6,508 bases of DNA from an uncultured Bacillota bacterium (lineage in GTDB: Bacteria > Bacillota > Clostridia > Caldicoprobacterales > UBA3941): NCBI GenBank assembly GCA_937960725.1, contig CALGOY010000167.1, positions 1 to 6,508 of the forward strand, written 5' to 3'. Below are positions 2,344 to 6,508 of this stretch, in pieces. Made by a program: the position numbers and the translations under genes. The notes under the pieces are model-generated. The model made no database searches. It was not told the DNA's origin and saw nothing but the letters and a program-made list of their open reading frames with translations. Position 1 is the stretch's first letter; each line of letters begins with the position of its first letter.

Positions 2344-3612
2344 ATGCCGTTATGGGAGGAAATCAAGCGAAAAAGGTTTCAGATTTTAGCCAAAAAACCA
2401 TTTTTATCTACAGGAATCTTCACGATAATTATTTGTCTAATAACAAAGATATTTGTTCAACTATCTTTTTCTCAATTTATTGGAATGCTGGTTATTATAG
2501 GCGCTATATTTGAAGGTCTTACATATATATTTATAAAAGAAACTAAGGATAAAATGGAATCGATTATTTACATTATGGATAGGATTAAGAATAAAGATTT
2601 AAGCCAAACCGTTGATTTATCTCAATTCGAAGAATTAGAAGCGGTTTCTATGAGTTTCAATAGTATGGTAGATGATCTAAAATCTATTTTAGGTTCTTTG
2701 AAATCAATTTCAGTTCAATTAGTCAATGCATCCGATATGTTAAACACCAACTCCGCAAAAATAAATGAATCCATGGACGATATGGTAGCTACCGTAGACG
2801 ACATTGCTCAGGGAGCATCAGAGCAGGCAATAGAAGCAGAAAAAGGGGTACAGCTAGTTATGAGCTTATCGGAGCAAATCAATGCCGTTTTCGAAAACTC
2901 CAACAACGTCGCTAAAGAATCCCAAAACATGAAACAACTAAGTGCTAACGGCCTAAATGCCGTAGAAACATTAAAAGCTGCTAATACACAGAGTGCAGAA
3001 ATGGCCGATAAAGTGTTTAAATTCATTCAATCCTTTGTAAAAAAATGTGAAAATATAGGCGAGTTCGTAGTTGCCATAAATAACATCGCTGAACAGACTA
3101 ATCTTCTAGCTCTAAATGCTGCCATCGAGGCTGCAAGGGCCGGTGAAGCCGGAAGAGGTTTTGCAGTTGTGGCTGATGAGGTAAGAAAACTAGCCGATGA
3201 CAGCAAAAGAGCTACTGAGGAAGTAGAACAAATTATGCAGGATATACTCAAAGAAGCACAAAACGCCAGCTCTATGGCCGGCATAATAGAATCGGTTATG
3301 GAAGAGCAGGATCAGGCTGTTAACCATACCGCCCAAGCATTCAACGTAATTGCCGATAGCATACAAAATATAATACAAAGGATAAACGATGCTAATCAAT
3401 CCATTGCAATGATGGAAAAAAATAAAAACGAAGTCATTGAAGCTATTCAGAACATTTCAGCAGTTTCTCAAGAATCGGCCGCTGCCAGCGAAGAAGTTGC
3501 TGCCACCGTCCAAGAACAAAAGAACTTAATCCAAGAATTGGCCGATTCCTCACGAAACTTAAACGAATTAGCTCTACAACTTCGACAGTATATGGATATT
3601 TATAAGCTATGA
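2344..3612 (+). CDS. Methyl-accepting chemotaxis protein lacking an extracellular sensor domain
   Basis: This is a 422-residue chemoreceptor signalling through CheA/CheW to the flagellar motor or a related output. Two membrane helices lie near residues 22-40 and 43-64, separated by only a few residues, so there is no periplasmic/extracellular ligand domain. A HAMP-like linker follows at about 65-117 ([26 protein letters not shown] in outline). The remainder is a long antiparallel coiled coil with the conserved hairpin tip at about 248-284 ([20 protein letters not shown], then [15 protein letters not shown]). Glu/Gln/Ala-rich stretches such as [18 protein letters not shown] (about 375-392) are typical adaptation helices. 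There is no CheR/CheB-tethering pentapeptide at the C-terminus (MDIYKL). AGGAGG at 2331-2336, 7 nt before the ATG, supports the start. It stands alone, facing purL. The signal sensed is unknown; the membrane itself, the HAMP region or a partner protein are possibilities. Confidence 0.95.
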
Positions 3613-3670
3613 TGTTTATAAACAATATACACATAGCCAAATAAATAAGTTGAATTGGATGATAAAATAT

Positions 3671-3711
3671 ATACTAAAAAGGATACCGGATTTCGGTATC
3701 CTTTTTAGTAT
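3671..3711. terminator. Bidirectional Rho-independent terminator between the MCP gene and purL
   Basis: A perfect 18-bp inverted repeat (3671-3688 with 3694-3711) encloses a 5-nt loop (GATTT). The core GGATACCG/CGGTATCC is flanked by an A5 run on the left and a T5 run on the right, so either transcript gives a hairpin followed by U residues. It lies 58 bp after the MCP stop and 5 bp beyond the purL stop, where it can end both converging transcripts. Confidence 0.92.
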
Positions 3712-3716
3712 TTCTG

Positions 3717-6508
3717 TTATCTAAAATATGCCACTCCTGCTTCAAATATTTTCTGATCCTTATCTCCTGGTATATTAATGGCAAGGTCAGCTTCGAGCCT
3801 CTCTGGATGACCCATCTTGCCGAGTATCCTGCCGTCGGGGCTTGTAATTCCTTCGATAGCCTGATATGAACCATTGGGATTGTAAGGCATTTCAAGGGTT
3901 GGTTTACCTTCCATGTCCACATACTGACTAGCAATCTGGCCGTTTTTGCTGAGACGATCAATTAACTCCGCAGATGCAACAAAGCGTCCTTCTCCATGGG
4001 AGATAGCCACTGTATGGATATCTCCAACTTCTACATTGCTAAACCAGGGAGAAAGGGTAGAAGCTACCCGAGTTCGAACCGTGCAGGATATGTGTCTTCC
4101 AATAGTGTTAACTGTAAGGGTTGGAGCATTTTCATCAATATCCCTAATCTCACCGTAGGGAAGTAGCCCCAGCTTGAGAAGGGCTTGAAAGCCATCGCCG
4201 ATACCTAAGATTAACCCATCTCTCTTATTAAGAAGCTCCATTACAACCTCTTCAAGTCTAGGATTTCTGAAAACAGCGGCAACAAACTTACCAGAGCCTT
4301 CTGGACTATCCCCTGCTCTAAATCCATTGGGTATCACTAAGATCTGGCACTCTTTAATCCTCTCGGCCATAAGCTCAAAAGACTCCCTAATTTCTTTTGG
4401 GGTTAAATTTCGGAAGACCATCGCGTCTACTTCCCCGCCGGCTCTCTGAAAAGCCCTGGCCATATCGTACTCACAATTAGTACCTGGAAGTACTGGGATA
4501 AAAATTCTAGGCCTTGGCTTTCTAATCAAAGGCTTTGATTTATATCTTTCCCCATAGCTATAGCACTCAACTCTATCATTCTTATTATCAGCATTTTGTA
4601 TCGCAGTAGGGAATACTCCTTCCAGCGGCTTAGTCCAGGCTTCGATCGCCTCATCAAGGTCTATAGCTTCCCCTCCTATCACTATGCTACTATCTTCCTG
4701 CGTATTTCCAAGCTTTATATAATTGACCTTTTTAAATAATTCATCTAAATTTTCATCTTTGTCTATTTCTAATATAATAGAACCATACTCAGGAGTAAAC
4801 AAACCTTCAACAGGCATATCGCTATCGTATACAAAGCCTATTTTATTCCCAAAGCACATCTTGCTTATCGCGTCTGCTACTCCACCCTCTCTCACAGTGT
4901 GAGCTGCTAAAACCTTTTTATCCTTAATAAGCTCATGGATGATAATATAATTAGTTTTCAGCTCGTCAAAATCTGGTAAGCCATTTGTATCCCTGCTTAA
5001 GGGGACCATGACAACTTGGCTGCCGGATTTTTTAAATTCTGGGGAAACAACATCCCTTACATCCAATACTCCTACCGCGAAGGCTACTAAGGTAGGGGGA
5101 ACCGTCAAATCTTCAAATGTTCCTGACATACTGTCCTTACCGCCTATAGATGGTATGCCTAGCTCCATCTGAGCGCGGTAGGCTCCCAGCAATGCGCTAA
5201 AGGGCTTGCCCCATTTTTTAGGATCATCCCCCAGCCTTTCGAAATATTCTTGAAAAGTCATCCGTACTTTTCTATAATCCCCACCCATAGCTGTAAGCTT
5301 GGCTAAGGCTTCTACTATAGCATATACAGCCCCATGGAAAGGACTCCATTTCGCAATGCGGGGATTATATCCATGGGTCATAATAGTGGCCGTATTAGTA
5401 TCCCCCTCCAGCACCGGTATCTTTGCCACCATTCCTTCTGCTGGAGTCAACTGGTATTTGCCTCCAAAGGGCATCAAAACCGTCCCTGCCCCAATGGTGC
5501 TGTCGAACATCTCTACTAGGCCTTTTTGACTGCATACATTTAGATCTTGAAGAACCCTAAACCAGCTATCCTTCAGATTAGCATCTGTATTTTCTTTATT
5601 TTCTACAGATTTTTCAAAATAGCTATCCTCCAATTTAGGAGATTCTACTAAAACAGATGCCTTCTTTACAGCTCCATTGCTGTTTAAAAATTCCCGGCTT
5701 ATGTCTACAATGGCTTTCCCTCTCCAGTACATCTTAAGCCTCTTCTCTTCCGTTACCACAGCCACCCTCGTTGCTTCAAGATTTTCTTTCCTAGCAGCCT
5801 CTACAAATGCCTGTTCATTTTCTTTATCAATGACCACAGCCATCCTTTCCTGGGACTCCGATATGGCCAGTTCCGTACCGTCCAATCCTTCATATTTCAC
5901 AGGAACTAAATCCAAATTGATTTCTAAGCCATCAGCCAGCTCTCCAATTGCCACCGATACTCCCCCAGCACCAAAGTCATTGCACTTTTTAATCATAGTA
6001 GAAACAGCTGGATCTCTAAACAGCCGCTGTATCTTTCTTTCTTCAGCAGGATTACCTTTCTGGACCTCTGCACCACAAGTTTCCAGCGATTCCTTCGTAT
6101 GGGCCTTAGAAGAACCGGTAGCTCCACCGCAGCCATCCCGTCCTGTTCTTCCTCCTACCAGTATTACTACATCTCCCGGCTTGGGAGTTTCCCTAACTAC
6201 CTGTTTTCTGGGGGCAGCTGCAATTACGGCTCCAAGCTCCATCCTCTTAGCCACATAGCCCTCGTCGTATATCTCCGCCACATGGCCTGTTGCAACGCCT
6301 ACTTGATTCCCGTAAGAGCTATAGCCCTCCGCCGCTCCAATTGTAATTTTTCTTTGAGGCAGCTTCCCTGGCAAAGTATCTTCTACCCGTGTCCTGGGAT
6401 CGCCGCTTCCAGTTATCCGCATAGCTTGATATACATAGGAACGGCCCGACAAGGGATCCCGTATGGCTCCCCCTAAACAGGTGGCTGCTCCGCCAAATGG
6501 CTCAATTT
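3717..6508 (-). CDS. purL: Phosphoribosylformylglycinamidine synthase, clostridial single-chain type (5' partial), with altered glutaminase site
   Basis: PurL makes FGAM from FGAR, ATP and an amino-group donor in purine synthesis, in the cytoplasm. About 929 codons are visible. The frame is open to the right edge, where it reads IEPFGGAATCLGGAIRDP, so the TTG at 6452 is internal and roughly 300 N-terminal residues are missing compared with the usual 1,230-1,270. FGAM synthase hallmarks include NDFGAGGVSVAIGELADG, DGTELAISESQERM, DSTIGAGTVLMPFGGKYQL, TNTATIMTHGYNP, KWSPFHGAVYA and GIPSIGGKDSMSGTF. This arrangement matches the clostridial/streptococcal family (TIGR01857) rather than the separate PurS/PurL/PurQ system. 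A class I glutamine amidotransferase domain follows at about 4520-3720 (starting FIPVLPGTNCEYD, ending GKMGHPERLE and FEAGVAYFR). Its catalytic Cys is replaced by Gly (GIGDGFQ) and its oxyanion strand reads PNGFR. No other pur gene lies next to it in this window. The synthase part looks functional; the glutaminase part probably is not. Confidence 0.96.
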   Translation of the reverse strand, partial: IEPFGGAATCLGGAIRDPLSGRSYVYQAMRITGSGDPRTRVEDTLPGKLPQRKITIGAAEGYSSYGNQVGVATGHVAEIYDEGYVAKRMELGAVIAAAPRKQVVRETPKPGDVVILVGGRTGRDGCGGATGSSKAHTKESLETCGAEVQKGNPAEERKIQRLFRDPAVSTMIKKCNDFGAGGVSVAIGELADGLEINLDLVPVKYEGLDGTELAISESQERMAVVIDKENEQAFVEAARKENLEATRVAVVTEEKRLKMYWRGKAIVDISREFLNSNGAVKKASVLVESPKLEDSYFEKSVENKENTDANLKDSWFRVLQDLNVCSQKGLVEMFDSTIGAGTVLMPFGGKYQLTPAEGMVAKIPVLEGDTNTATIMTHGYNPRIAKWSPFHGAVYAIVEALAKLTAMGGDYRKVRMTFQEYFERLGDDPKKWGKPFSALLGAYRAQMELGIPSIGGKDSMSGTFEDLTVPPTLVAFAVGVLDVRDVVSPEFKKSGSQVVMVPLSRDTNGLPDFDELKTNYIIIHELIKDKKVLAAHTVREGGVADAISKMCFGNKIGFVYDSDMPVEGLFTPEYGSIILEIDKDENLDELFKKVNYIKLGNTQEDSSIVIGGEAIDLDEAIEAWTKPLEGVFPTAIQNADNKNDRVECYSYGERYKSKPLIRKPRPRIFIPVLPGTNCEYDMARAFQRAGGEVDAMVFRNLTPKEIRESFELMAERIKECQILVIPNGFRAGDSPEGSGKFVAAVFRNPRLEEVVMELLNKRDGLILGIGDGFQALLKLGLLPYGEIRDIDENAPTLTVNTIGRHISCTVRTRVASTLSPWFSNVEVGDIHTVAISHGEGRFVASAELIDRLSKNGQIASQYVDMEGKPTLEMPYNPNGSYQAIEGITSPDGRILGKMGHPERLEADLAINIPGDKDQKIFEAGVAYFR
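3720..4520 (-). other. Degenerate class I glutamine amidotransferase domain of PurL
   Basis: The C-terminal domain of about 265 residues keeps the PurQ-like fold: FIPVLPGTNCEYDMARAF at its start, GSGKFVAAVFRNPR, SPWFSNVEVGDIHTVAISHG, YNPNGSYQAIEGITS and GHPER. Two of the three active-site elements differ from the family. The nucleophile elbow (codons 4185-4205) is GIGDGFQ where GICNGFQ is expected. The oxyanion strand (codons 4317-4331) is PNGFR where PGGFS is expected. The His (3807-3809) and Glu (3801-3803) of the triad are present. The frame has no stop or shift, so the domain is maintained, perhaps for structure. Confidence 0.8.

Follow-up and report, generated by a model that had tools for sequence, protein, structure and literature searches.

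The fused PurL encoded in the stretch of DNA analysed here (6,508 nucleotides, referred to as the window) has lost the catalytic cysteine of its glutaminase domain. The same loss unites the window protein with its closest relatives in one clade and has arisen independently in other lineages of Clostridia, and most of the genomes concerned have lost the corresponding site in further amidotransferases as well. As the catalytic Cys is gone and every synthetase invariant is kept, the window PurL is likely to be an FGAM synthase that depends on ammonia, and it would represent one case of a recurrent shift from glutamine to ammonia. With less assurance, we also lean towards a broader reading, in which several Clostridia lineages independently changed the nitrogen source for much of their nucleotide and related biosynthesis, with free ammonia replacing glutamine. 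This shift would involve PurL, CarA, GuaA and TrpG/PabA, joined in some cases by PurF, PyrG and AsnB, thus two unrelated folds, and these classical amidotransferases would now act as plain ammonia ligases.

The purL gene and its glutaminase domain

The features of the locus, with positions in the window, are as follows.

3717..6506, minus strand: purL, fused FGAM synthase (TIGR01857), an intact 929-codon frame that leaves the window at its right edge
3723..4514, minus strand: glutaminase (GATase_5) domain, residues 665-928 (PF13507, 268 bits)
4185..4205, minus strand: nucleophile elbow GIGDGFQ, residues 768-774
4197..4199, minus strand: Gly770 (GGC), aligned with the catalytic Cys of Salmonella PurL
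4194..4196, minus strand: Asp771 (GAT), an Asn in 66/66 Cys-bearing genome rows compared
4317..4328, minus strand: glutamine-pocket loop, residues 727-730, NGFR versus the usual GGFS (G727N and S730R)
3801..3809, minus strand: His900-Pro-Glu902, with the remaining two triad residues retained (from the alignment)
3661..3721, no strand: inverted repeat with 28-nt arms, a 5-nt loop and T-runs, lying between purL and the MCP gene that converges on it

The 5' end of purL lies outside the window, past position 6508; the cluster of 99% identical proteins (P0001) has a length of 1260 aa. The purL frame scored 1428.5 bits against TIGR01857 (cut-off 1057), as expected of a fused FGAM synthase. No purine gene adjoins purL within the window, where the other genes encode a sugar-type ABC permease (3-887), an esterase (920-1756, PF00756) and a chemotaxis receptor (2344-3612), of which Pfam matches only the signalling domain. 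The inverted repeat likely serves as a two-way terminator common to the chemotaxis receptor gene and purL.

The initial annotation had reported the loss of the nucleophile in an otherwise open frame. On re-reading, the codons at 4185-4205 are indeed GGT ATC GGC GAT GGC TTT CAA (GIGDGFQ), and all 929 codons of 3717-6506 are open. To place this elbow, 201 rows were aligned, comprising the window, 80 genome loci and 120 protein clusters. The elbow GICNGFQ, which had been named as the usual form, was exact in 184 of these, and Cys was kept in two non-standard elbows (GICNGFH and GVCNGFQ). The 15 Cys-less rows were the window, P0001, two further clusters (P0002 and P0003) and 11 genome loci. In the alignment, His900 and Glu902 match the HPER motif of Salmonella-type PurL chains and Gly770 falls at their Cys; we take the roles of these residues to be those of the catalytic Cys and HPER in the Salmonella-type enzyme. 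The domain, the His and the Glu of the Cys-His-Glu triad are thus present, with Gly in place of the Cys, and by its ancestry and its synthetase the window protein belongs to PurL but falls outside the glutamine-hydrolysing class.

Comparison with relatives bore out that the nucleophile is gone and the synthetase retained, the combination that characterizes a CPS1-like ammonia-dependent amidotransferase. Invariant columns were defined from 66 Cys-bearing genome PurLs (155 in the synthetase, 72 in the glutaminase). The window keeps 155/155 of the synthetase invariants and has lost 6/72 of those in the glutaminase (F673, G727, S730, I742, C770 and N771), so the protein as a whole is not decaying. 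Across the 15 Cys-less rows, 0-5 synthetase and 4-18 glutaminase invariants were lost, the latter being 3-17 without the Cys column, which is counted by construction. When the 66 Cys rows were left out in turn, mean losses were 0.6 and 0.3, with maxima of 6 and 2, respectively. The glutaminase-to-synthetase divergence averaged 1.19 over 91 Cys-less pairs versus 0.89 (sd 0.10) over 2414 Cys pairs, the pairs being non-independent. Rough dN/dS estimates, with dS above 1 and near saturation, were raised in the glutaminase for L038/L066 (0.136 vs 0.066 in the synthetase) and not raised for L035/L044 (0.085 vs 0.108). The glutaminase domain of Cys-less PurL is still constrained. An AlphaFold model of the window PurL (pLDDT 72, pTM 0.77) retained the strand-turn-helix element at residue 770 and matched whole FGAM synthetases. 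That Gly or Ser took the place of the Cys repeatedly would be in keeping with a strained elbow in which small residues are tolerated.

Clade and recurrence of the cysteine loss

Among the best 120 of 7991 protein relatives scored, three were Cys-less: P0001, the window's own cluster (23 member sequences, 99% identical in the searched region), P0002 (83% identical, GIGDGFQ) and P0003 (81% identical, GISDGFQ). The next relatives, P0004 and P0005 (72-73% identical), carry GICNGFQ. In a FastTree phylogeny of the synthetase part, the window and the three Cys-less clusters formed one clade with an SH-like support of 100, which grouped with P0004 and P0005. The question of the initial annotation, whether the variant is shared by a clade, is thereby answered in the affirmative. 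A local base-calling error is untenable, since the separate clusters P0002 and P0003 carry the same change.

Among the best 80 of 436 relatives in GTDB species genomes, 11 loci were Cys-less (L015, L035, L038, L039, L040, L043, L044, L056, L066, L077 and L078), with elbows that include GIGSGFQ, GISSGFH and GIGNGFN. Mapping the elbow on the tree (FastTree), as had been proposed, placed the Cys-less state in the window clade and in independent losses elsewhere, and at least eight changes at the Cys position are required in total. L056 pairs with Lutispora thermophila, L015 pairs with Defluviitalea and L040 sits among Acetivibrio, and all of these neighbours on the tree carry the Cys. A second protein comparison around L044 (best 120 of 7996) gave 87 new relatives, 8 of them Cys-less. 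Scanning 391 genomes drawn from the class for the elbow pattern gave 60 places in 54 genomes, mostly by chance; after all 60 had been read, a Cys-less PurL was verified in 12/391 genomes (3 of the 12 from the first set), a lower bound because the pattern misses some replacements. In a plasmid search, fused PurL was also seen on large replicons, e.g., of Monoglobus and Ilyobacter.

Habitat was inferred from record titles only. Names of the form AS... denote MAGs from a biogas survey (PMC7038595), and by title, with kinship ignored, the Cys-less state was found in 8/26 of these, 0/20 strain-titled records and 3/34 others.

Glutaminase losses in other amidotransferases

Parallel loss in other amidotransferases goes beyond what the initial annotation saw. 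Fifty genomes were examined: 11 with Cys-less PurL, 19 Cys-bearing MAGs from digesters or reactors and 20 strain-titled genomes. With the PurF and AsnB cases described below included, a further amidotransferase site was lost in 9/11 Cys-less PurL genomes; G006 had no further loss, and G011 retains PyrG and PurF.

CarA was found in five of the 11 genomes and was Cys-less in all five (GIGLGHQ in four, AIDLGCQ in one). It was found in 15/19 MAGs, six of them with a Cys-less form (G013, G016, G017, G023, G026 and G028), and in 17/20 strain-titled genomes, each of the 17 with at least one Cys copy. The strain-titled Acetivibrio mesophilus (G015) carries, besides its Cys copy, a second CarA that is Cys-less. 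This second CarA (within L458, 3-8045) adjoins carB-like genes and, by eye, what are presumably arginine biosynthesis genes, and this one strain may have two carbamoyl phosphate synthases, one of the glutamine type and one of the ammonia type.

GuaA was without an intact glutaminase in five of the 11 genomes (G001, G002, G003, G008 and G010) and in two of the 19 MAGs (G013 and G017), the Cys being gone or the domain shrunk or deleted; in G008 the protein is shortened to 324 aa. One eroded and one intact copy occurred in G007, G009 and G021, and an extra copy without the glutaminase domain in G026 and G032. All 20 strain-titled genomes have a GuaA with GICYGxQ. No GuaA above the cut-off was found in G004 and G023, and that of G011, cut by a contig end, was left out of the count. 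TrpG/PabA was Cys-less in G001 and G013, and PyrG in G005 only. PyrG was found neither in G001, G003, G004 and G009 nor in the Cys-bearing G013, and G002 and G010 gave only weak matches; the missing PyrG likely reflects assembly gaps. Site-less CarA, GuaA and PyrG proteins (L121, L131, L237 and L127) pass curated models named glutamine-hydrolyzing, and automatic annotation therefore hides the glutaminase loss.

The glutaminase of PurF has the Ntn fold, which is unrelated to class I. Its Cys is N-terminal (PMC3261824) and was present in G001, G005, G006, G008 and G011 and in the standard-set copies (see below) of G007 and G009. It was absent across the L035/L044/L077 clade, i.e., from G002, the other G007 copy and G010; G003 and G004 gave no PF13522 match. 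The Cys-less PurF loci are L449:389-1732, L450:259-1647 and L451:376-1746. In G007 and G002 the in-register Cys codon is, by eye, a stop (TGA and TAG, respectively), and the frame opens directly after it. The Cys-less PurF proteins nevertheless score 500-517 bits (cut-off 350). G002 also has two Cys-less AsnB-type proteins (L452 and L453). The Cys is kept in HisH (read in two of the 11 genomes) and in the readable GlmS starts. Because the Cys persists in the PurF, GlmS and HisH of most genomes in which these were read, glutamine is still used.

A second set comprised the 9 further Cys-less PurL genomes from the 391-genome scan, with 9 hand-picked controls from the same draw, in which the state of PurL is known from the pattern only. 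Further loss was found in 6/9 (G214, G295, G061, G260, G280 and G217; in G061 it concerns a second GuaA next to an intact one) and in 1/9 controls (G202, a second GuaA copy), with a Fisher p of 0.05, or 0.015 without G420, which gave no match at all. G083 and G169 had no further loss. The Cys of CarA was kept in G214, G061 and G169; in G260 one CarA copy has it and another does not. A CarA pattern occurred in 27/391 genomes, against 2 for the reversed control; by eye, 24 of the 27 were real (22 CarA, 2 TrpG), and none of these 24 was among the 12 PurL genomes of the scan. That CarA loss strictly accompanies PurL loss, as 5/5 in the first set had suggested, was rejected on the retained Cys in the second set and this zero overlap. 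Fisher tests, with kinship ignored, gave p 0.001 for CarA (0.038 for metagenome genomes only) and p 0.0015 for GuaA (0.023). In phylogenetically independent pairs, too few for significance, CarA followed PurL in 1-3 of 3, and GuaA in 2-4 of 6 with the opposite in 0-1. The losses in PurL and the other amidotransferases go together loosely.

Loss of glutamine synthetase was considered as a cause and rejected, with a PF00120 match in 9/11 Cys-less genomes (none in G006 and G008). By eye, the proteins of G002, G003, G005 and G009 resemble ordinary GlnA, which we take them to be; in G001 and G011 the only match lies in a frame of 704-705 aa.

Nitrogen source and comparison with known systems

In PurL, ammonia from the glutaminase lets the synthetase convert FGAR to FGAM (PMC3815217), and ammonia remains a substrate of E. 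coli PurF that lacks its Cys (PMC3261824). We hypothesize that the synthetase site of the window PurL, itself unchanged, binds FGAR and ATP, that the glutamyl thioester could not form without Cys770, and that free cytosolic ammonia would gain entry by way of the old channel or of a gap next to the dead glutaminase domain, which would persist as a structural partner. The probable driver would be an ammonium-rich habitat, e.g., anaerobic digesters, in which the glutaminase would gain little and its site would erode, with the synthetase meanwhile under strong purifying selection. The genome of the window organism presumably resembles those of the relatives examined.

Almost every Cys-less PurL stems from a metagenome, which could point to a sequencing or assembly artefact. 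However, the same change recurs across separate clusters and lineages with additional changes within the same glutamine pocket, and the strain-titled A. mesophilus genome carries its Cys-less second CarA; with such independent copies an artefact is already excluded for practical purposes. It is also very improbable that the site still cleaves glutamine by another nucleophile. An Asp follows the lost Cys in 4/4 window-clade rows (Asp771), and some relatives have Ser at the Cys position, but the residue after this position varies (D, S, N, E), the pocket loop is altered too (S730 lost in 10/14 rows), and human CPS1, which has a Ser, cannot use glutamine (PMC4655335). Scarcely more credible is that the gene has become a paralogue of new function, or that the purine pathway is decaying. 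Several glutaminase invariants are lost, as decay would predict, but the window has lost 0/155 synthetase invariants and the Cys-less rows stay within the range of the Cys rows (0-5 versus up to 6), the synthetase dN/dS of L038/L066 is low, and a second full PurL (TIGR01736) was found in only two of the 11 genomes, G007 and G009.

The initial annotation offered two alternatives, ammonia dependence or service by a separate amidotransferase. A glutaminase acting in trans, PurQ or other, is unlikely, though the least improbable of the rivals. Fused PurL derives from a split PurSLQ ancestry, and PurQ with GICNGFQ occurs in G007 and in G061 of the second set. Against this, 10/11 Cys-less genomes had no second PF13507 match (PurQ/PurL-type glutaminase), the sole match being the Cys-less PurL itself; ammonia dependence is therefore favoured over the second alternative. 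In addition, the dead domain is still attached at the place that PurQ would occupy. G007, G009 and G061 have standard purine sets with their own small PurL, including PurQ in G007 and G061. These sets (L508, L492 and L099, from three distant Cys-less genomes; small PurL in all, PurQ and PurF in two) share 76-84% identity despite that distance, and they may represent contamination or a second set common to these genomes.

Biochemistry regards ammonia-built nucleotides as a rare exception, and the glutaminases of PurL, CarA and GuaA are usually regarded as required in vivo. If ammonia dependence holds, these lineages would be natural experiments on why glutamine channelling persists elsewhere, on how ammonia gains access to a buried synthetase site and on the internal ammonium level at which channelling stops paying. 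The old question of the need for ammonia channelling would become testable with existing genes, and the Cys-less state could mark ammonia-rich niches. No report of Cys-less PurL or of joint loss across amidotransferases was recognised among the titles and abstract openings of papers retrieved by full-text searches of the open-licence PMC literature.

The closest known enzymes are the Clostridia fused FGAM synthase (TIGR01857) and Salmonella PurL, which share the domains, synthetase invariants, triad His and Glu and fold with the window protein; the window protein differs in the missing catalytic Cys and the altered pocket loop. Single-domain NadE NAD synthetase resembles the proposed state in that ammonia replaces glutamine in vivo, but there the form that uses ammonia is considered the ancestral one (PMC3376133), whereas the proteins described here had a glutaminase at first and lost it later. 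A table in the same source lists no purL, guaA, carAB or pyrG that lacks a glutaminase component, the state of the Cys being outside its scope. Ammonia-dependent amination after glutaminase loss has been proposed for archaeal PurF' without the N-terminal Cys (PMC3261824) and for a hisH deletion in Corynebacterium glutamicum (PMC3896937); in contrast to the present case, each concerns a single enzyme, the former beside a normal PurF and the latter by laboratory deletion. Human CPS1, the parallel drawn in the initial annotation, keeps its class I glutaminase domain as a Cys-less scaffold (Ser294) and uses ammonia (PMC4655335). CPS1 is an animal enzyme of the urea cycle, whereas the losses described here affect bacterial purine synthesis in several lineages and enzymes, for which ammonia would be the probable donor.
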